Below, piece by piece: positions 3,674 through 32,003 of a stretch of DNA of 35,221 bases (positions within the stretch are counted from its first letter, which is position 1; each line of letters opens with the position of its first letter). Under the pieces are notes generated by a model. It was not told the DNA's origin. It saw only the letters and a program-made list of their open reading frames with translations, and made no database searches. The position numbers and the translations under genes are program-made. The stretch is from Clostridia bacterium (GTDB lineage: Bacteria; Bacillota; Clostridia; Oscillospirales; Acutalibacteraceae): positions 1 to 35,221 of the forward strand of contig JAFPLH010000108.1 in NCBI GenBank assembly GCA_017402845.1, given 5' to 3'.

Positions 3674-3836
3674 GCAAAGCGAGATCCATATATTTTCATA
3701 TGCGGACGGCAGGCCCTGTGCGAGAGGGCGCCGCGAACCATGTCAGGCGGGGAACCGAGCAGCATTAAACGGAGTTGCCCTCTGCGATGCAGTAAGTCTG
3801 TCGTTCGTATATTAAAGTATATGGATTTTGATTTTT
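3674..3836 (+). ncRNA. ffs: Signal recognition particle RNA (4.5S/scRNA type)
   Basis: RNA scaffold of the bacterial SRP, which binds Ffh and targets nascent membrane proteins. The conserved domain IV tip is at 3742-3763: GTCAGG, stem CGG, GGAA tetraloop (3751-3754), stem CCG, then AGCAGC. Long-range pairing supports the ends: ATGCGGACGGCAG near 3707 with CTGTCGTTCGTAT near 3798-3810, AGAGGGC with GCCCTCT, and ATCCATATA with TATATGGAT (3818-3826). T-rich sequence follows. At about 160 nt it is longer than 4.5S but shorter than the Bacillus large form with its Alu domain. Its position directly upstream of dnaX matches other Firmicutes. The exact ends are estimates. Confidence 0.88.
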
Positions 3837-6844: not shown

Positions 6845-7015
6845 GGAAACACTGATTAAATCGAGTGCCCGTATCGCTTAGAATTATTTCAGGCAAATTG
6901 TACGAAAATCACGTAGGAATACTGACGTATTTCAAGTGATTTGAGTGTAATTTGACGAAAAAAGGCAAGCGAGATGGGTGCTCAGTCCGCAGGACGTGAT
7001 TTATTCAGTGTTTCC
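6845..7015 (+). mobile_element. MITE-like palindromic element, copy 1
   Basis: A 171-bp element beginning GGAAACACTGATTAAATC and ending GATTTATTCAGTGTTTCC, flanked on both sides by CAAG (6841-6844 and 7016-7019), a 4-bp target duplication. Inner arms also pair: GAGTGCCCGTATCGCTT (6863-6879) with AAGCGAGATGGGTGCTC (6967-6983), then AAATCAC with GTGATTT around the core. The whole element can therefore fold as one long imperfect hairpin. It differs from copy 2 at about ten positions by eye. There is no coding capacity, so it would need a transposase in trans. Confidence 0.82.
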
Positions 7016-12552: not shown

Positions 12553-12606
12553 GATTGTAGTTTCTTTACGGTATTGTATCAGACAGACACAGAACAGTAT
12601 AACAAA

Positions 12607-12727
12607 CTTCTCTCATCCGGACTATACCGTCGGCACAGGAATTTCACCTATTCAGCATAAAAACAGCTCACGGGCTTCCGTATTCAGCGGTTACCGTCGG
12701 TGGGGAGTTCCACCCCGCCCCGAAGTT
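12607..12727 (-). promoter_or_regulatory. FMN riboswitch (RFN element)
   Basis: Minus-strand leader with the conserved RFN blocks in order: CTTCGGGGCGGGGTGGAA, CCCACCGACGGTAACCGC, GAAGCCCGTGAGC, TAGGTGAAATTCCTG, CCGACGGTATAGTCCGGATG and AGAGAAG. This is the aptamer that binds flavin mononucleotide and turns off riboflavin synthesis or uptake genes. The basal stem is CTTC...GAAG. A terminator follows about 55 nt downstream. Confidence 0.96.
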
Positions 12728-12739
12728 CTTTCATTGTAC

Positions 12740-14310: not shown

Positions 14311-14429
14311 TTTATTATACTGCATTTATTGGCTGAAAAAACTAATGATGATTCAGATTGCCATAAGTGTATTCTTAATTAATAAAACTTAATAACATAA
14401 GGTTGACCACTGCAGTGGAGGGGTTTATT

Positions 14430-16490
14430 TTGATAACGTGTAAGTTGTGTGGTACTTCTAACGAAGCAAAATCCTCCGTATGCAAGAAATGCGGAGTTCC
14501 TCTGAGAGAGAGGACAAAACAAAGTATAAAAAATAGTTCCAAAGAGATCTATTCCAGCAGAAAGCCGCAGGATAGCTTTATAGATTTGGATGATAACAAA
14601 GATGTATTTTCTTCAAGGAAAAAATACGAGATAGCCAGAAAAGAAAAGGTATTAGGAAAGATTTACGAGCGTGAGCTTGAATTGGGGGATGCGCCCCTTA
14701 CACCATATACATTTGAAGAGAATACCGCAAAAAATGAAAATGAAACTGTCGAAACAGTTCAGCCGTTGGTAATAAATCGTATAAATACGTCTGATATAGT
14801 AGGCGCAAAGAATACGTTTGTTCCTCGTGATACCGGATACGGTACTGTCGAACACCGAAAAGCCGGAAATAATACAAATAAGAACAATAATAAAAAGAAA
14901 AAGCAAAATAACAAGCAGAACAATAAGAATGATTCTGTGGTCAGTATACCGCAAAGAGAGTTAAAGCCGGTAGATACTCAAAAAATAGCGGCACAGCAGC
15001 AAGCAAGAGAAAGACGTGCAAAGGCTGCCTTTGCTGCAAGAAATAACATTCGCAGGCAGGATAATACTGTTAAGAATAATGAAAGCTCATCCACAGCAAA
15101 GCAAAGCTCAGATGACGTAACCGAGCAAAAAACAAAGGTTATCGAGCTTGAAAAAACAAAAAAAGCAAGCTCACAAAATGACGATGTAAAAACTTTTGAG
15201 CGTAAACCAAAGAAGCCTGTTCGTCAGAATACGGGTGTAAAGGTCAGCGAACGTCCGGTAAACAATTCTATCAGCAGCGATCTTGAAGATAAAAAGAGAA
15301 GCGTCAAGCCTGTCGAAAAGAAAAAAACGGCCGGTGAGCGTTTGAACGACTCTGAAAAAGCTGCTCCGGCTATTCTAAAAAAAGACGATAGTTTAAAGAA
15401 ACGTTATGATGTGACGCCAGACAAAACTATTACTTCTGAGGCAGAACAAGAGCTTTTGAATGCTGTTAAAATCACTCTTACTGAGAATGATTCCGAAAAA
15501 GAGAAGAAAGAAAAAATAACTGTTCAGGAGAAAAAAGCTGTTATATCAAAGTCTGCTGAAACTGCCGAGAATGAAGCAGAGGTAGAGCCGATAAATACAG
15601 TTAACACCAAAGAAAAATCTGCTGCCGAGAATACCGCAGAGAAACCAAGGGTAAAACCTGTAAAGACGGTCAAAACAGAGGATAAACCGACTGCCGAGAA
15701 TACCGCAGAGAAACCGAGGTTAAAACCTGTAAAGACGGTTAAAACAGAGGATAAACCGGCTGCCGAGAATACCGCAGAGAAACGGAGGTTAAAACCTGTA
15801 ACGACGGTTAAAACAGAGGATAAACCGGCTGCTGAGAGTACCTCAGAAAAACCAAGGGTAAAACCTGTAAAGACGGTTAAAACAGAGGATAAACCGGCTG
15901 CCGAGAATACCGCAGAAGAAACAAAGACTGCACCGATAAAGACAGCTAAAACCGAGAAAAAAGCAGATACCGAAAAATCAGGGGAAACTGCTGATACTGA
16001 AACAAAAGCAAGATCGGGCAAAACTGCAAACAGCGCTAATTCAGCAAAAACAAAGAAGAAAGTGTTTAGTGATGAAGATATCGCAGCCAACAAGTATTAT
16101 GCCTCGTGTGCATACTTTGGCGTATTGCTGCTGCTGCCGTTTCTTAAACGCAAAGAGTCAAAGTTTTGCAGAGCGCATACCAAACAGGGAACGGCTGTAT
16201 TTGTATATTCTCTGATAGTTGAGCTTATTTCTTTGCTGCTTGTGATCGGATTGCGTGCACTTCTCGTGTGGGTGCTTGGCATGCCTTATGCAGTATATTC
16301 TGTGCTTATGATTGTTGTATTCTCTGCTATGTGTGTACTATTGGTTATACCTGCTTTTAGTGGAGCCAAAAATGCCTTTAGCGGAAAATATAAGTCAGTT
16401 CCGATAGCAGGCAAATTTGTAAAGAAAAAAAGTACAGGCAAAAAGAAAAGCAGTCAAAAAAAGGCTAAATCGCCCAAAGAAAAAGAATAA
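14430..16490 (+). CDS. Zinc-ribbon, low-complexity and membrane protein
   Basis: A protein of about 686 residues of unknown function. The N-terminal 25 residues are a zinc ribbon with Cys4, Cys7, Cys18 and Cys21 (ITCKLCGTSNEAKSSVCKKCG). A long Lys/Glu/Thr/Asn-rich disordered region (about 30-550) includes 23-residue tandem repeats. The C-terminal 130 residues hold three or more hydrophobic helices: YYASCAYFGVLLLLPFL, a helix after FCRAHTKQGTAVFVYSLIVE, and VLMIVVFSAMCVLLVIPAF. These resemble DUF4870/Tic20-like membrane domains, followed by a very basic tail. TTG 14430 is chosen because GGAGGGG lies 6 nt before it and it starts exactly at the zinc ribbon; the frame also has TTG at 14403. A terminator follows. 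Confidence 0.8.
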   Translation: MITCKLCGTSNEAKSSVCKKCGVPLRERTKQSIKNSSKEIYSSRKPQDSFIDLDDNKDVFSSRKKYEIARKEKVLGKIYERELELGDAPLTPYTFEENTAKNENETVETVQPLVINRINTSDIVGAKNTFVPRDTGYGTVEHRKAGNNTNKNNNKKKKQNNKQNNKNDSVVSIPQRELKPVDTQKIAAQQQARERRAKAAFAARNNIRRQDNTVKNNESSSTAKQSSDDVTEQKTKVIELEKTKKASSQNDDVKTFERKPKKPVRQNTGVKVSERPVNNSISSDLEDKKRSVKPVEKKKTAGERLNDSEKAAPAILKKDDSLKKRYDVTPDKTITSEAEQELLNAVKITLTENDSEKEKKEKITVQEKKAVISKSAETAENEAEVEPINTVNTKEKSAAENTAEKPRVKPVKTVKTEDKPTAENTAEKPRLKPVKTVKTEDKPAAENTAEKRRLKPVTTVKTEDKPAAESTSEKPRVKPVKTVKTEDKPAAENTAEETKTAPIKTAKTEKKADTEKSGETADTETKARSGKTANSANSAKTKKKVFSDEDIAANKYYASCAYFGVLLLLPFLKRKESKFCRAHTKQGTAVFVYSLIVELISLLLVIGLRALLVWVLGMPYAVYSVLMIVVFSAMCVLLVIPAFSGAKNAFSGKYKSVPIAGKFVKKKSTGKKKSSQKKAKSPKEKE
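15627..15902 (+). repeat. Four 69-bp tandem coding repeats
   Basis: Units start at 15627, 15696, 15765 and 15834, each encoding 23 residues of the form ENTAEKPRxKPVKTVKTEDK plus PAA. A fifth degraded unit follows at 15903-15971, and the repeat KS/AAENTAE also marks the left flank. Near-identity at the DNA level indicates recent expansion, and copy number probably varies between strains. Confidence 0.92.
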
Positions 16491-17934: not shown

Positions 17935-18822
17935 ATGGATAAGCTTTCCGATATAGGTACAATAAAAGAGATACTTGCAAAATATGGTTTTTCTTTTTCA
18001 AAGGCATTGGGACAGAATTTTCTTGTTAATCCGTCAGTTTGCCCACGCATGGCAGAAAACAGCGGCGCCGATAAAGGCGTTGGAGTTATAGAGGTAGGTC
18101 CCGGAATAGGAGTGCTTACATGCGAGCTTGCAAAACGTGCTGAAAAGGTAGTTGCCGTTGAGCTTGATAAAAGGCTTTTACCGGTGCTTGAAGATACACT
18201 TTCCGAGTATGATAATATAAAGGTAATAAATGCAGATATCTTAAAATTAGATCTGCATAAGCTTATCAAAGAGGAGTTTGAGGGGCTTGACGTTGTTGTG
18301 TGTGCTAATTTGCCGTACTATATAACATCACCCGTAATAATGAAGCTGCTTGAAGATAAGCTGCCTATTCGTTCGATCACGGTAATGGTACAAAAAGAAG
18401 CCGCTGATCGTTTATGTGCGGCTTTGGGTACAAGACAGGCGGGCGCAGTTACAGCGGCTGTAAACTACTACGCAAGACCGGAAATGCTTTTTAAGGTATC
18501 GTCGGGCAGCTTTATGCCGCCGCCAAAGGTAGACAGTGCCGTGATTAAAATGACGCTGCACGACAAACCGCCCGTAGATGTTAATAGTGAAGAATTAATG
18601 TTTCGGGTAATAAAGGCGTCATTTGCCCAGCGAAGAAAAACAATACTCAACAGTTTATCCAACGGGTTTGGAAAGGATAAAAGCAGCGTGTCTCAGGCTT
18701 TGGAAAAAGCAAATATCAGTAAAACATCAAGAGCCGAGCAATTGACGCTTGATGACTTTGCAAGGCTTGCGAATGAGCTTTTGATATATTCTAAAGAAAC
18801 GAGTGATGATCTTGACGTATAA
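17935..18822 (+). CDS. rsmA: 16S rRNA (A1518/A1519-N6) dimethyltransferase
   Basis: KsgA enzyme that dimethylates two adjacent adenines in the 16S rRNA 3' helix during 30S maturation. The 295 residues show FSKALGQNFLVNPSVCPRM, SAM motif VIEVGPGIGVLTCELA, acidic VVAVELDKRL, DILKLDL, motif IV NLPYYITSPVIMKLL and GSFMPPPKVDSAVI, all family signatures. ATG 17935 is used rather than the in-frame GTG at 17926 because GAGGTG (which contains that GTG) is its ribosome binding site. folC begins within its last codons. Confidence 0.97.
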   Translation: MDKLSDIGTIKEILAKYGFSFSKALGQNFLVNPSVCPRMAENSGADKGVGVIEVGPGIGVLTCELAKRAEKVVAVELDKRLLPVLEDTLSEYDNIKVINADILKLDLHKLIKEEFEGLDVVVCANLPYYITSPVIMKLLEDKLPIRSITVMVQKEAADRLCAALGTRQAGAVTAAVNYYARPEMLFKVSSGSFMPPPKVDSAVIKMTLHDKPPVDVNSEELMFRVIKASFAQRRKTILNSLSNGFGKDKSSVSQALEKANISKTSRAEQLTLDDFARLANELLIYSKETSDDLDV

Positions 18823-20107
18823 AGAAGCATTGGAAAAAATAGATTCTCTGCTTGTGTTCGGTTCACATCCCGGACTTGACAGAATAAAAAAGCTGCTTGA
18901 TCTTACGGGTAATCCGCAGGATAAGCTTAAATATGTACATGTCGCAGGTACGAACGGAAAAGGCTCTGTCAGCAATATGACAGCAAGTATATTAAAAAAC
19001 GCAGGGTATAAAACAGGATTGTTTACCTCTCCTCATATAACAGGTTTCGGAGAAAGAATGCAGATAAACAACGAACAGATTACGGAAGCAGACATTATAT
19101 CATTAACCGAAAGACTATTTCCGTTTGTACAAAGTATGAATGAGAAAGGCGAGATAATTACAGAGTTTGAGTTTGTAACTGTAATGGCATTTCATTATTT
19201 TGCTGAACAGAAATGCGATGTTGTTGTGCTTGAAACCGGTCTTGGCGGACGCCTTGACGCAACAAACGTAATAAAAAAGCCGCTTTGCAGTGTTATTACC
19301 TCAATTTCTTTAGATCATACCGCCGTACTTGGCGATACGCTTTCAAAGATAGCTTTTGAAAAGTGCGGAATAATAAAAGAAAACTCAAAAACAGTTTTCG
19401 CCACACAAGAGGATGAAGTAAACGAGGTGGTATTCACAACTGCATGTGAACGAAAAAACGTTCTTTATACGCCTGTAAATTTGTCTGTACTCGACAGCGA
19501 TATTAGCGGTACAACAGTTGAGTATTCGGGCGTAAAGATAAAGCTGCCCCTGCTTGGTCAACATCAGGTGAAGAATATGCAGCTTGTGTTAAGCGTTGTA
19601 TCAGCACTTAAAGAAAGCGGTTTATCTATCAGTGAAGAAAATGTAAAGCAGGGTATTGAAAGTGTAATAATGCCTGCAAGATTTGAGCTGTTTTCAAAAG
19701 AGCCTTTGATAATAGTTGACGGCGCACACAATCCGGGCGGCTGCAAAGCGTTGGCGTGTGCGGTTGACAGATATTTGTCTGATAAAAAAATCGTTTGTAT
19801 AATGGGAATGCTTAAAGACAAAGACAGCGGTACTGCAATAGAATATCTGAGAGGAAAATTCTGTAAAGTTATAACAACGTCAGTTGCAAACAGTCCACGC
19901 AGACAAACAGCAGAGGAGCTGAAATCAAAAGCAAAAGACGTATTTACCGATATAACAGCGTGTGAGGACTATAAACAGGCGGTTGATCTTGCGCTTGAAA
20001 TTGCAAAGCAGGAGCAAAATTCGGCTGTACTTGTTTGTGGCTCACTTTATCTTGCTTCTGATATTCGTGTATATTTGAGTGAAAGATTGAATAAAGAGCA
20101 CCTCTAA
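18806..20107 (+). CDS. folC: Folylpolyglutamate synthase/dihydrofolate synthase
   Basis: Mur-ligase family enzyme that adds glutamate to dihydropteroate or folates. The product is about 433 residues, the usual length. It has P-loop VHVAGTNGKGSVS (about 45-56), FTSPHITGFGERM, VLETGLGGRLDATNV, SISLDHTAVLGDTLSKIA, EKCGIIKE and the second-domain motif VDGAHNPGGCKAL. The start is uncertain: ATG 18806, GTG 18803 and TTG 18812 are all in frame and overlap the end of rsmA, so translation is likely coupled. Its transcription terminator has been split by a MITE (20132-20301). Confidence 0.95.
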   Translation: MILTYKEALEKIDSLLVFGSHPGLDRIKKLLDLTGNPQDKLKYVHVAGTNGKGSVSNMTASILKNAGYKTGLFTSPHITGFGERMQINNEQITEADIISLTERLFPFVQSMNEKGEIITEFEFVTVMAFHYFAEQKCDVVVLETGLGGRLDATNVIKKPLCSVITSISLDHTAVLGDTLSKIAFEKCGIIKENSKTVFATQEDEVNEVVFTTACERKNVLYTPVNLSVLDSDISGTTVEYSGVKIKLPLLGQHQVKNMQLVLSVVSALKESGLSISEENVKQGIESVIMPARFELFSKEPLIIVDGAHNPGGCKALACAVDRYLSDKKIVCIMGMLKDKDSGTAIEYLRGKFCKVITTSVANSPRRQTAEELKSKAKDVFTDITACEDYKQAVDLALEIAKQEQNSAVLVCGSLYLASDIRVYLSERLNKEHL

Positions 20108-20113
20108 ATAATT

Positions 20114-20326
20114 ATCCGCCCGAAAGGTTCAGGAAACACTGATTAAATCGAGTGCCCGTATCACTTAGAATTTTTTCAGGCAAATTGTGCGAAAATCACG
20201 CCGGAATACTGACGTATTTCAAGTGATTTGAGTACAATTTGACGAAAAAGGCAAGCGAGATGGGTGCTCAGTTCGCAGGACGTGATTTATTCAGTGGTTC
20301 CTTAATTTCTATCGGGCGGATTTTTA
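20114..20326. terminator. Bidirectional terminator split by a MITE
   Basis: ATCCGCCCGA (20114-20123) and TCGGGCGGAT (20312-20321) are perfect complements, with A/T tracts outside both arms. They lie between convergent folC and the small membrane protein gene. The 170-bp element at 20132-20301 sits entirely inside the loop. Without it the loop would be about 14-18 nt. Confidence 0.8.
20132..20301 (+). mobile_element. MITE-like palindromic element, copy 2
   Basis: A 170-bp copy, same orientation as copy 1. Ends are GGAAACACTGATTAAATC and GATTTATTCAGTGGTTCC (one T-to-G change in the right terminal repeat). Flanks are TTCA (20128-20131) and TTAA (20302-20305), a decayed 4-bp duplication matching at 3 of 4 positions. 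The palindromic internal structure and the core AATACTGACGTATTTCAA are intact. Confidence 0.82.
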
Positions 20327-20755
20327 TCAATCATTGTTTTTCTTTTTTTTGTTATTGTCTTTTTCGTCGTCCTCGTCGCTGTCGTCCTTTGCGTTTGACT
20401 GTTCTCCGAAGGATCTTCCTGTCAGCTTGTCATAGTAAGTGTATAGCTTTTGCGTGCCGTTTTCAAGATGATAATAGTGTATGATATAAGGAAATAAAAG
20501 CACCATTATCATTATAAAGAGCATAAGTATAGAAATAGATTTGAAATACACAAGAGCCACAAGTATTATTATAGCTGAAAGTGCAAATAAATGAGTTACG
20601 ATCAGATGTATCAGTCTTTCATGCTGGAAAAACTGAGTATGAACAAGCAGCTCTTTGATAAGCTTTTCTTTTTCTTCTTCACTCATCTTTGCAAGCTTTT
20701 CAGAGCTTGTTTGTTCTTCTATAAAAGCAAGAAAGTCGCATAGTCTTTTGTACAT
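20327..20755 (-). CDS. Small two-helix membrane protein, unknown function
   Basis: A 142-residue protein. Residues 1-45 are charged and helical (EEEKEKLIKELL). Two hydrophobic helices follow (about 50-68 LIVTHLFALSAIIILVALVYF and 72-90 SILMLFIMIMVLLFPYII), then a short amphipathic stretch and a very acidic-then-basic tail (DDSDEDDEKDNNKKKK). I do not recognise the family. AAAGGAG lies about 10 nt before the ATG. It is the last gene of the alr-polA unit, 15 nt after polA, so co-expression is likely but functional linkage is not shown. Confidence 0.75.
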   Translation of the reverse strand: MYKRLCDFLAFIEEQTSSEKLAKMSEEEKEKLIKELLVHTQFFQHERLIHLIVTHLFALSAIIILVALVYFKSISILMLFIMIMVLLFPYIIHYYHLENGTQKLYTYYDKLTGRSFGEQSNAKDDSDEDDEKDNNKKKKNND

Positions 20756-20770
20756 ATAATTATCACTCCT

Positions 20771-23368
20771 TTAAGCTTTTGCGTCATACCAGGTTTTTCC
20801 GACAGCGCCGTCTGCTGTCAATGGAACATGAAGGCTGACAGCAGATTCCATTTCTTCTGTCAGAATAGCTTTTGCTTTTTCTGCTTCTTCAATGGGTGCT
20901 TCGATGATAAGTTCATCGTGAACCTGTAAAATAAGCTTTGCTTTCATGTTTTCAGCTTTTAGTCTGTTGTATACTTTGATCATTGCGATTTTGATAATAT
21001 CAGCAGCAGTACCTTGAATAGGCATATTACGTGCGACTCTCTCACCAAACGAACGCAAATTGAAGTTTGAAGATGTAAGCTCAGGCAAATATCTTCTTCT
21101 TCCGAGCATTGTTTCTGCATAACCGAGCTCTTTAGCTTTTGAAACAGCATTATTCATAAAAGAATCTACTCCGCTGTAATGCTTCAGATAAGACTTGATG
21201 TAATTATCAGCCTCTTTGCGTGTTACGCCGATATCCTTTGAAAGAGAGAATGCCCCGATACCGTATACTATACCGAAATTAACGGCTTTTGCTCTGCTTC
21301 TCAAGGTAGAGTTTATCATATTTTCCGGCAGAGAAAAAACCTGTGAAGCCGTAACGGTGTGAATGTCTATTCCTTCGTTAAAGGCTTTTATCATCTCTTT
21401 GTCGTTTGAGATGTGTGCAAGCACTCGAAGTTCGATCTGAGAGTAATCAGCGTCAATAAGAACACAGCCCTCGTCCGCAGTAAAAAAACGGCGGAGTTCT
21501 TTTCCAACGGCAGTTTTTACCGGAATATTCTGTAAATTTGGTTCGAGAGATGAAATGCGCCCCGTTCGTGTTTCTGTTTGATTGAAAACAGAGTGTATTC
21601 GTCCTTTATCGTCGATAACCTTTACAAGGGCATCGCAATAGGTAGATTTCAGCTTTGTAAGTGAACGATATTCTAAGATCATATCTATTGCAGGGTGAGC
21701 ATATCGCAAGCCTTCGAGTACCTCTGCACTTGTGGAATATCCGCTTTTAGTTTTCTTTGAACCGGGCAGACCGAGCTTTACAAAGAGTGCCTCGCCGAGC
21801 TGTTTGGGTGAGTTTATGTTAAACTCATAGCCTACTGAATCATATATTTCTGCTTTTAATTTGTCGGCCTTTTCTCCGAGCAGCTTTCCGTAGTCATCAA
21901 TGCCCTTTGAGTCTATCTTAAAGCCGCAAAGCTCCATATCGGCAAGCACACAGGCAAGAGGTATCTCAATGTTATGAAGCAGATCAAGCTGATCGTTTTC
22001 AGCAAGCTTTTTGTTAAGCACATCGCATAAAGAGGGCAGATAAGCGGTGCAAGAAGCTGCTTCGCTGCTGTATAAGAGTGAGTCCTCATAATACTTGAGT
22101 ACAATGCCGTATTCCTCGCAAAGTCTGTTAGTATCGTATGAGCTTGCAGAAGGGTTCAGCAGATAGCCTGCAAGCTGAACATCAGTAACAATACTCTGAC
22201 ATTCGATATTGTTTGTTATAGCAAGTGCAAAAAGAGCTTTGCTGTTCGAGGTGTGCTTTTGTATTTCTGAGTTGGGAAGAATACTTCTGAGAATATCAAT
22301 TGCCTGATCGGCATCAAAAACATCAACACTATTTTCGCTTCTTGTATAAAGCTTGATAAGCTTGCCCGAATCCGTTTCGGTAATAAAGAAAGCCTTTTTT
22401 TCTTTTTTGATGTACTCAAGCGTTTTTGTGATGTCGGGTTCGGTGCATAACTTAGGCAGTTCAGAGGTCTGAGCTTCGGTCTCCTGGAGCTTGATATCAG
22501 AACGAAGCTCCCATTTCTTTATAAGCGAAAACAACTCCAGAGAAGCAAGCTTTCTTACTGCTTGCTGTGCATTGATATCACCGATTTTATATGCAGAGAG
22601 ATCACGTTCTATGGGTGCTTCACGGCTGATAGTACCGAGCATTTTACTCATAAATGCCAGGTCTTTTCCGGCAATAAGCTTTTTACGTATACCGGGCTTA
22701 ACATCAATAGTATCAATGTTGTCGTAAATATATTCGATATTGCCAAAACGCTGAATAAGGTCTTGAGCGCCCTTTTCACCGATACCCGGAACACCGGGAA
22801 TGTTATCAGAGGAATCTCCCTGAATAGCTTTAAGCTCAATCATTTGTACGGGGGTAACTCCGTATTTTTCTTTTATTTTTTCCGTATCGTATAATTCAGC
22901 TTCGGGCTTGCCTGCCTTTGTCGAGGCAAGTCTTACTGTAACATTATCAGAGATAAGCTGCAAAGAGTCACGGTCACCGGTAGCGATAACGCATTTTACA
23001 CCTGCTTTGTCGCATTCACCTGCAATAGTGCCGAGAATATCATCAGCTTCAAAGCCTTCACATTCAGTAAGCTTATACCCCAGAACGGAAAGAAGCTCTT
23101 TGAGCACAGGCATTTGAGAAGCAAGCTCCGGCGGCATACCCTTTCTGCCTGCTTTATACTCGCTGTATGCTTTGTGACGAAAGGTTGGAGCTTTGAGGTC
23201 AAAAGCGATACAAGCGCAGTCAGGCTGAACAGTTTCTTTTATTTTGTCGAGCATGGTCAAGAAACCGTAAATTGCATTTGTATACTGCCCGTCTTTGGTA
23301 GTGAGCAGTTTAATTCCGTAAAAGGCACGGTTTACGATACTGTTTCCGTCAACAGCCAAAAAAGTCAT
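20771..23368 (-). CDS. polA: DNA polymerase I
   Basis: Repair and Okazaki-fragment polymerase with 5'-nuclease activity. The 865 residues are ordered as follows. A FEN-type 5'-3' exonuclease spans about 1-290 (FLAVDGNSIVNRAFYG, ECEGFEADDILG, GDRDSLQL, IQGDSSDNIPGVPGIGEKGA). A degenerate 3'-5' exonuclease-like domain spans about 310-470. The polymerase spans about 480-865, with motif A DADYSQIELRVLAHIS, motif B RSRAKAVNFGIVYG and motif C QVHDELIIEAP. In the exonuclease region FITETDSG replaces the metal-binding F-D-x-E pattern, so proofreading is probably absent, as usual in Firmicutes. AGGTG precedes the ATG. Confidence 0.97.
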   Translation of the reverse strand: MTFLAVDGNSIVNRAFYGIKLLTTKDGQYTNAIYGFLTMLDKIKETVQPDCACIAFDLKAPTFRHKAYSEYKAGRKGMPPELASQMPVLKELLSVLGYKLTECEGFEADDILGTIAGECDKAGVKCVIATGDRDSLQLISDNVTVRLASTKAGKPEAELYDTEKIKEKYGVTPVQMIELKAIQGDSSDNIPGVPGIGEKGAQDLIQRFGNIEYIYDNIDTIDVKPGIRKKLIAGKDLAFMSKMLGTISREAPIERDLSAYKIGDINAQQAVRKLASLELFSLIKKWELRSDIKLQETEAQTSELPKLCTEPDITKTLEYIKKEKKAFFITETDSGKLIKLYTRSENSVDVFDADQAIDILRSILPNSEIQKHTSNSKALFALAITNNIECQSIVTDVQLAGYLLNPSASSYDTNRLCEEYGIVLKYYEDSLLYSSEAASCTAYLPSLCDVLNKKLAENDQLDLLHNIEIPLACVLADMELCGFKIDSKGIDDYGKLLGEKADKLKAEIYDSVGYEFNINSPKQLGEALFVKLGLPGSKKTKSGYSTSAEVLEGLRYAHPAIDMILEYRSLTKLKSTYCDALVKVIDDKGRIHSVFNQTETRTGRISSLEPNLQNIPVKTAVGKELRRFFTADEGCVLIDADYSQIELRVLAHISNDKEMIKAFNEGIDIHTVTASQVFSLPENMINSTLRSRAKAVNFGIVYGIGAFSLSKDIGVTRKEADNYIKSYLKHYSGVDSFMNNAVSKAKELGYAETMLGRRRYLPELTSSNFNLRSFGERVARNMPIQGTAADIIKIAMIKVYNRLKAENMKAKLILQVHDELIIEAPIEEAEKAKAILTEEMESAVSLHVPLTADGAVGKTWYDAKA

Positions 23369-23386
23369 AATAAATCACCTGCACAA

Positions 23387-24574
23387 TTAATCAATAAGGC
23401 TTTTTACAGCCGTAACCTCTTTATTTTTGATGTATACTCTCGGTACACGCTTTCCTACAAGACAAGCAACTTCGTAACTTATTGTACCCGTCCATGAGGC
23501 AACGTCGTCCATAGTAATTTCGTTTTTACCTGCTTTTCCAACAACGGTAACAGTATCGCCAACTCTCACGTTTTTAATATCTGAAATATCTATCATACAC
23601 TGATCCATACATATCCTGCCAATGACCTTTGCTTTTTTGCCGCAAACTATCATATATGCATTTTCTGCAAGATTTCTGATGTATCCGTCTGCATAACCGA
23701 TAGGAACAGTGGCAATACGCAGCTTTTTGTCTGCCGTAAATGTTCTGCCGTAGCTGACAGTAGTACCGGGTTCAATTTCTTTGATGTGAGCGATAACTGA
23801 CTTTATCTCCATTGCAGGTTTGAGTTCAAGCTGACCTTTAAGCTTGCCCGACGGCGCAAGACCATATAGAATGATACCTGCTCTTACCATATCCATATTA
23901 GCGTTTTTATAGTCCATAATAGCAGCGCTGTTAGAGCAGTGCTTGATTATTATGTCGGTGTCGAAACCGTTTTCCTTCATACCGTTGATAATAAAGTTAA
24001 AACATTCTATCTGATGTTCTGTATACTCTTTGCCGTCCTCTTTTTCGTCTGATACCGCAAAGTGAGTGAAAATACCCTCAATGCAAATATTATCGAGAGA
24101 AGCAATTTCAAGAGCTTCTTTAATAGGAGTATTATCTGTTGTATTCTGACACATAAGACCTATGCGGCTCATACCTGTATCTACCTTTATGTGAGCTTTG
24201 ACTGTTACCGATAAGCTTTGAGCATATTCTGAAAGCTCCTGTGCATATTCGAGTGAGAAAACTGCCTGAGAAATATTGTAATTTGAAAGTTCGCATACAT
24301 AGCTTGCAGGAGTATACCCTAATATGAGAATAGGAGTATTGATACCGCCTAAACGCAGTTCGAGTGCTTCTTCAAGATTTGATACCGCAAAAAAGCTTGC
24401 GCCGAGACGCTCATAAAGCTGAGCAAGCTCCAAAGCGCCGTGACCGTAAGCGTCGGCTTTGATAACGCAGCACATTTTAGTACCTGCCGAAAGCTGTTTT
24501 TTTATAAGTCTGAAATTATGTTCTATTCTGTTGAGATTTATTTCTGCCCAAGTTCTTCTGAAATAATTATCCAA
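23387..24574 (-). CDS. alr: Alanine racemase
   Basis: PLP enzyme that makes D-alanine for peptidoglycan. The 395-residue sequence has the PLP lysine Lys39 in CVIKADAYGHG, the catalytic tyrosine of the second domain at about residue 275 in TTVSYGRTF, HIKVDTGMSRIG, HCSNSAAIM and GRICMDQCMID. The start is TTG, read from the minus strand, with GGAGG 9 nt upstream and no better ATG nearby. A strong promoter lies at 24611-24639. It heads the leftward unit alr-polA-small membrane protein; polA starts 18 nt after its stop. Confidence 0.96.
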   Translation of the reverse strand: MDNYFRRTWAEINLNRIEHNFRLIKKQLSAGTKMCCVIKADAYGHGALELAQLYERLGASFFAVSNLEEALELRLGGINTPILILGYTPASYVCELSNYNISQAVFSLEYAQELSEYAQSLSVTVKAHIKVDTGMSRIGLMCQNTTDNTPIKEALEIASLDNICIEGIFTHFAVSDEKEDGKEYTEHQIECFNFIINGMKENGFDTDIIIKHCSNSAAIMDYKNANMDMVRAGIILYGLAPSGKLKGQLELKPAMEIKSVIAHIKEIEPGTTVSYGRTFTADKKLRIATVPIGYADGYIRNLAENAYMIVCGKKAKVIGRICMDQCMIDISDIKNVRVGDTVTVVGKAGKNEITMDDVASWTGTISYEVACLVGKRVPRVYIKNKEVTAVKSLID

Positions 24575-31768: not shown

Positions 31769-32003
31769 GGAAACACTGAATAAATCACGTCCTGCGGACT
31801 GAGCACCCTTCTCGCTTGCCTTTTTTAGTCAAATTGCACTCAAATCACTTGAAATACGTCAGTATAGTCTCGCCTGCTGTCTCGGTCGGTGCTGTTGCCT
31901 ACGGCAACGTCTGCCACCGGCAGACCGCACCCTGCGTGATTTTCGCACAATTTGCCTGAAAAAATTCTAAGCGATAAGTGCACTCGATTTAATCAGTGTT
32001 TCC
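31769..32003 (-). mobile_element. MITE-like palindromic element, copy 3, with central insert
   Basis: A 235-bp copy in inverted orientation. Ends GGAAACACTGAATAAATC and GATTTAATCAGTGTTTCC are flanked by a perfect 4-bp duplication, CTAA (31765-31768 and 32004-32007). It starts 5 nt after the dockerin stop codon. The arms match the other copies, but a 66-bp block (31866-31931) replaces the centre between CGTCAGTAT and TGCGTGATTTT. Confidence 0.85.
31866..31931. repeat. GC-rich cloverleaf insert in MITE copy 3
   Basis: 66 bp, visibly more GC-rich than its surroundings. It contains hairpins GTTGCC-TAC-GGCAAC (31894-31908) and TCTGCC-ACC-GGCAGA (31910-31924), closed by GGTGC (31888-31892) with GCACC (31927-31931), a three-way junction. 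It is absent from copies 1 and 2. Confidence 0.65.

Follow-up and report, generated by a model that had tools for sequence, protein, structure and literature searches.

Intrinsic terminators of bacteria, including bidirectional ones, combine a GC-rich stem with a T-rich tail directly after a stop codon, and their loops usually span a few nucleotides (PMC12207403); the median loop among intrinsic terminators that have been measured is 4 nt, and the TransTermHP criteria admit loops of up to 13 nt and stem-loops of up to 59 nt (PMC12207403). IS1272 is a transposable element found at stem-loop sites, where it takes the place of the target stem-loop without producing a duplication (PMC5678879). The IS5-family MITEs of Porphyromonas gingivalis (BrickBuilt, MITE239, MITE464 and MITE700; PMC4596501) are short, non-coding, multicopy and strongly folding, and their terminal inverted repeats correspond to those of an IS5-family transposon; predicted Rho-independent terminators often flank BrickBuilt copies (PMC4596501).

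We analysed a window (the whole stretch of 35,221 nucleotides) from a Clostridia bacterium, Ruminococcus-like and of the rumen, and confirmed that an element of known kind, a MITE, has inserted into the loop of a terminator whose two arms are preserved. The stem shares the GC-rich pairing, the T-rich tail and the position directly after a stop codon (that of folC) with the described terminators, whereas its loop now measures 188 nt rather than a few. As with IS1272, a transposable element occupies a stem-loop site; unlike IS1272, which would have replaced the stem-loop without a duplication, this one retained both arms, and its flanks carry a 4-bp duplication in which one base differs. The element resembles the P. 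gingivalis MITEs in being short, non-coding, multicopy, strongly folding and bounded by IS5-type terminal repeats, but differs from them in its sequence and in the repeats themselves; furthermore, the terminator of BrickBuilt_5 lies upstream and is undisturbed (PMC4596501), whereas here the element is within the loop. A search of the open-access literature found no report of a MITE within a terminator loop. The features of the junction are listed below, where G013 denotes a sister species represented by a rumen-type MAG, the best relative available for an empty-site comparison.

18803..20107, plus strand: folC, folylpolyglutamate synthase/dihydrofolate synthase type (ORF; Pfam Mur_ligase_M, Mur_ligase_C)
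20114..20123, plus strand: left (5') arm of the terminator stem, ATCCGCCCGA (sequence; same in the G013 empty site)
20128..20131, plus strand: left copy of the target-site duplication, TTCA, differing from TTAA by one base (the G013 empty site has TTAA)
20132..20301, plus strand: MITE, 170 bp, imperfect terminal inverted repeats GGAAACACTGATTAAATC / GATTTATTCAGTGGTTCC (repeat-family comparison)
20302..20305, plus strand: right target-site duplication TTAA
20312..20321, plus strand: right (3') arm of the terminator stem, TCGGGCGGAT (sequence; same in G013)
20321..20325, plus strand: T run where the stem ends, TTTTTATC, tail for folC transcripts (sequence)
20327..20755, minus strand: 142-aa ORF, last gene of the convergent operon (ORF; DNA conserved beside polA in G013)
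20771..23368, minus strand: polA, DNA polymerase I (ORF, Pfam)
23387..24574, minus strand: alr, alanine racemase (ORF, Pfam)

The name folC came from the original prediction and fits the Mur ligase domains of the protein. On the opposite side, that prediction had placed an alr-polA unit facing folC; polA and alr do lie in the convergent operon, but the gene directly facing folC is the 142-aa ORF, which had no Pfam or NCBIfam match and whose stop codon is 5 nt from the right arm. Any read-through from folC would therefore be antisense first to the 142-aa ORF and then to polA. Elsewhere in the window, we observed a small bacterial SRP RNA (3707-3806, plus strand) and an FMN riboswitch (12601-12731, minus strand), both above the Rfam gathering score, and a 695-aa ORF (14403-16490, plus strand) with in-frame repeats of type KTEDKPAAENTAEKPRVKPVKTV followed by a hydrophobic C-terminal region.

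The two arms are perfect 10-bp complements with 7 G-C pairs; the stem begins 6 nt past the folC stop codon and is followed by TTTTATC. The inverted repeat across the junction scored 28.5 against a best shuffle of 25.5 (0 of 3000 shuffles of the 40-nt flanks were as good). We infer that the stem is a working intrinsic terminator. The plus-strand tail after the stem is T-rich and short (TTTTATCA), and the minus-strand tail is weaker (AATTATTT), so that termination in both directions, as originally proposed, has partial support from the sequence and is plausible. The relative quality of the tails is reversed in G013 (minus strand TTTGTTAT, plus strand AAATTATT).

Comparison with the orthologous junction in G013 (locus L061) revealed an empty site, ATCCGCCCGAAAGGTTAATACCGATCGGGCGGAT, in which the element is absent and TTAA stands at the insertion point (in full, TAA-CAAA-ATCCGCCCGAAAGGTTAATACCGATCGGGCGGAT-AAATTATT). 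The two genomes share the convergent layout, with protein identities of 87% for folC and 90% for polA, and all 20 of 20 arm bases are identical between the window and the empty site. Since G013 has the arms but lacks the element, the stem is older than the insertion, and the claim that a MITE had entered the loop of a pre-existing terminator-like stem was borne out: an empty site without the GC-rich arms would have contradicted it, and the arms are kept. Other folC loci of the genus were uninformative as empty sites because their downstream sequence differs, and the folC/142-aa ORF junction was absent from all of those examined apart from G013. The original target was most simply TTAA, with the left copy since changed by one base to TTCA. 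The insertion lengthened the loop from 14 to 188 nt and left arms and tails unaltered; the rebuilt empty site is 34 nt long, with pairing continuing inward through the 14 nt between the arms, and the composite is 208 nt long, far outside the size range used for intrinsic terminators (loop 3-13 nt, stem-loop at most 59 nt). The notion that there was no earlier stem, the arms having arisen as a repeat by coincidence or belonging to the MITE itself, found nothing in its favour. It is refuted by the empty site, the flanks of other MITE copies lack these arms, and their match exceeds chance in the shuffle test; we regard it as virtually excluded.

The MITE starts with GGAAACACTGATTAAATCGAG, ends with CGTGATTTATTCAGTGGTTCC and had no match in an Rfam search. 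BLAST with its sequence returned at least 45 matches in this genome, with some copies represented by more than one fragment and scoring limited to 40 candidates; a terminal-repeat pattern search of the same genome gave 130 ends resembling the terminal repeats, equivalent to about 65 copies. A matching right end was present for 56 of the 68 distinct left ends examined, and the complete copies are mostly 170-172 bp long, with variants of 133-492 bp. Identical 4-mers flank 43 of these 56 copies (mainly TTAG, TTAA and CTAA), 31 of the 43 conforming to YTAR. Target duplications of the YTAR type are typical of the IS5 group, and this property holds at family level, the copy at the folC junction having TTCA/TTAA with one mismatch. 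Relative to the family consensus, this copy carries 4 substitutions and 1 indel, placing it among the youngest of 39 copies compared; the insertion thus appears to be recent, and because the copy looks young, conservation of the arms cannot serve as a sign of selection after insertion. The window holds further copies at 6845-7015 (plus strand, 171 bp) and 31769-32003 (minus strand, 235 bp), flanked by the duplications CAAG and TTAG, respectively. Another copy of this genome (L003, about 1465-1725; G000:C28) lies between two terminator-like hairpins, the left one ending in a T run and the right one being CCCTCTGCCG...CGACAGAGGG.

Among the 18 congeners searched, 14 gave matches to this MITE family; 11 genomes from other families of the order gave 0. 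One congener (G021, L239 1304-2519) carries a complete 1,216-bp element whose ends, GGAACCACTGATTTAAT / ATTTGTTCAGTGTTTCC, match those of the MITE; its 341-aa transposase scored 294 bits against a cut-off of 140 for NCBIfam transpos_IS5_4 (NF033581), and this element, a likely autonomous relative, is a likely parent type of the MITE family. Transposase fragments in two other congeners (G003 and G006) have a similar right end downstream of the transposase. The window's own genome (G000), a draft assembly that may miss such a gene, had no PF01609 match or related transposase. The family is therefore short, transposase-free and multicopy, with terminal repeats matching a likely autonomous IS5-family element, and the copy studied here is present in the window genome and absent from the orthologous G013 site, as expected of an IS5-family MITE.

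We investigated whether the loop is a preferred target by scoring inverted repeats across rebuilt empty junctions of 56 own-genome and 43 congener copies, with 272 YTAR sites from non-coding parts of same-genus loci as the control. Strong arms occurred at 1 of the 56 own-genome insertions, the folC junction only, and at 2 of the 43 congener insertions, both in G005 (L236 and L238, the arms of L238 being imperfect). At L236 (G005:C283, about 165-400), a MITE of the same family lies between 13-bp perfect inverted arms, AAGCAATAGCTTT / AAAGCTATTGCTT. Stem-loop targets were not enriched (3 of 99 insertions, compared with 7 of the 272 controls; Fisher p = 0.73), and with no excess over control sites, the insertion into the loop is best read as chance followed by tolerance. 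A transposase favouring hairpin or terminator targets, as IS1272 does (PMC5678879), would account for the two further insertions between inverted arms in G005. The control comparison and the single case in the own genome nevertheless led us to reject it, and the folC junction, where the stem is retained and a duplication present, departs from the IS1272 pattern as well; this idea is highly improbable, although the small numbers leave room for a modest hairpin preference of the transposase.

We then considered the predicted folding of the junction. Predicted energies were -20.8 kcal/mol for the rebuilt empty hairpin, -23.3 kcal/mol for that of G013 and -92.3 kcal/mol for the composite, of which the arms contributed -19.6 kcal/mol when added to the inner segment. 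Their predicted pairing probability in the composite was 0.98-1.0 on the plus strand and 0.87-1.0 on the minus strand. These values agree with the original expectation that the arms can still pair with the element in place, at a probability near 1 and with almost the energy of the empty stem. The accompanying proposal, that the hairpin of the MITE brings the arms together, gained weak support: shuffled inserts of the same length gave an arm pairing of 0.94 and a gain of -18.7 kcal/mol, and since these are nearly as good, the element's own hairpin adds little to the predicted structure, which can form without it. For a growing plus-strand transcript, the arms were predicted to pair once the 3' arm is present, the 5' arm being partly paired with other RNA until then (mean about 0.45-0.65). 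Equilibrium folding of this kind holds little information on the short time window for termination. A consensus terminator scanner flagged neither the MITE nor the junction, and this silence is no evidence either way because the scanner also missed the intact G013 stem.

Taken together, we consider it probable that an IS5-type MITE inserted by chance into the terminator loop and was tolerated, folC termination being largely kept. In the course of events that we propose, the MITE would have transposed into a TTAA within the loop of an intrinsic terminator that already separated folC from the convergent 142-aa ORF-polA-alr operon, a site not selected for its hairpin; the insertion would be one among many TA-rich hits, itself without obvious harm. 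During transcription of folC, the MITE would fold on itself, the 3' arm would then pair with the 5' arm, and RNA polymerase would be released at the TTTTTATC tail, with some loss. Such a loss is credible because the usual terminator loop is about 4 nt (PMC12207403). The main rival holds that the 188-nt insert delays pairing of the arms past the pause at the T run, which would weaken or abolish the terminator and imply folC read-through, antisense to the 142-aa ORF as well as to polA, and likewise in the other direction. It draws on the composite being far beyond usual terminator sizes (PMC12207403), on the short plus-strand and weaker minus-strand tails, and on the scanner's silence over both MITE and junction, the last with the reservation given above. 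Against this, the arms are predicted to pair at near 1 once made and to recover almost the full free energy of the uninterrupted hairpin, and local folding of the MITE would cut the effective distance between them. Retained termination is the likelier outcome, and weakening by read-through is rather unlikely. We infer that termination has persisted after the insertion and that the MITE is most likely a tolerated passenger.

An effect in the opposite direction, with the insertion improving termination, starts from the short spacing of the stop codons (6 nt for folC, 5 nt for the 142-aa ORF). In Escherichia coli, a stem close to the stop codon left the tR2 terminator almost completely repressed, and full activity was reached once the two were more than about 30 bp apart (PMC4824070). 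Because the MITE shifts the 3' arm and the tail 174 nt further, the ribosome would already have cleared the stop codon, and would no longer block the hairpin, when the stem closes. The 5' arm, however, remains close to the stop codon, and the G013 stem has the same short spacing (4 nt). Furthermore, transcription-translation coupling in Bacillus subtilis is reportedly much less frequent or absent (PMC12207403), so a benefit from ribosome distance may not apply in a Bacillota host, where the ribosome may never have interfered. Improved termination by this route is thus quite improbable. The broader conjecture, that the composite 208-nt hairpin equals or beats the original terminator through a self-folding MITE that joins the arms and a tail that leaves the stop-codon ribosome behind, is only slightly less doubtful; if it were true, structured transposons could enter terminator loops at no cost.

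Our understanding of terminators or of MITEs is unchanged by this locus unless RNA data show unexpected behaviour. It nonetheless offers an example of a MITE persisting between convergent housekeeping genes and, with the orthologous empty site as control, a clean natural experiment on the tolerance of an intrinsic terminator for a long, structured loop insert.
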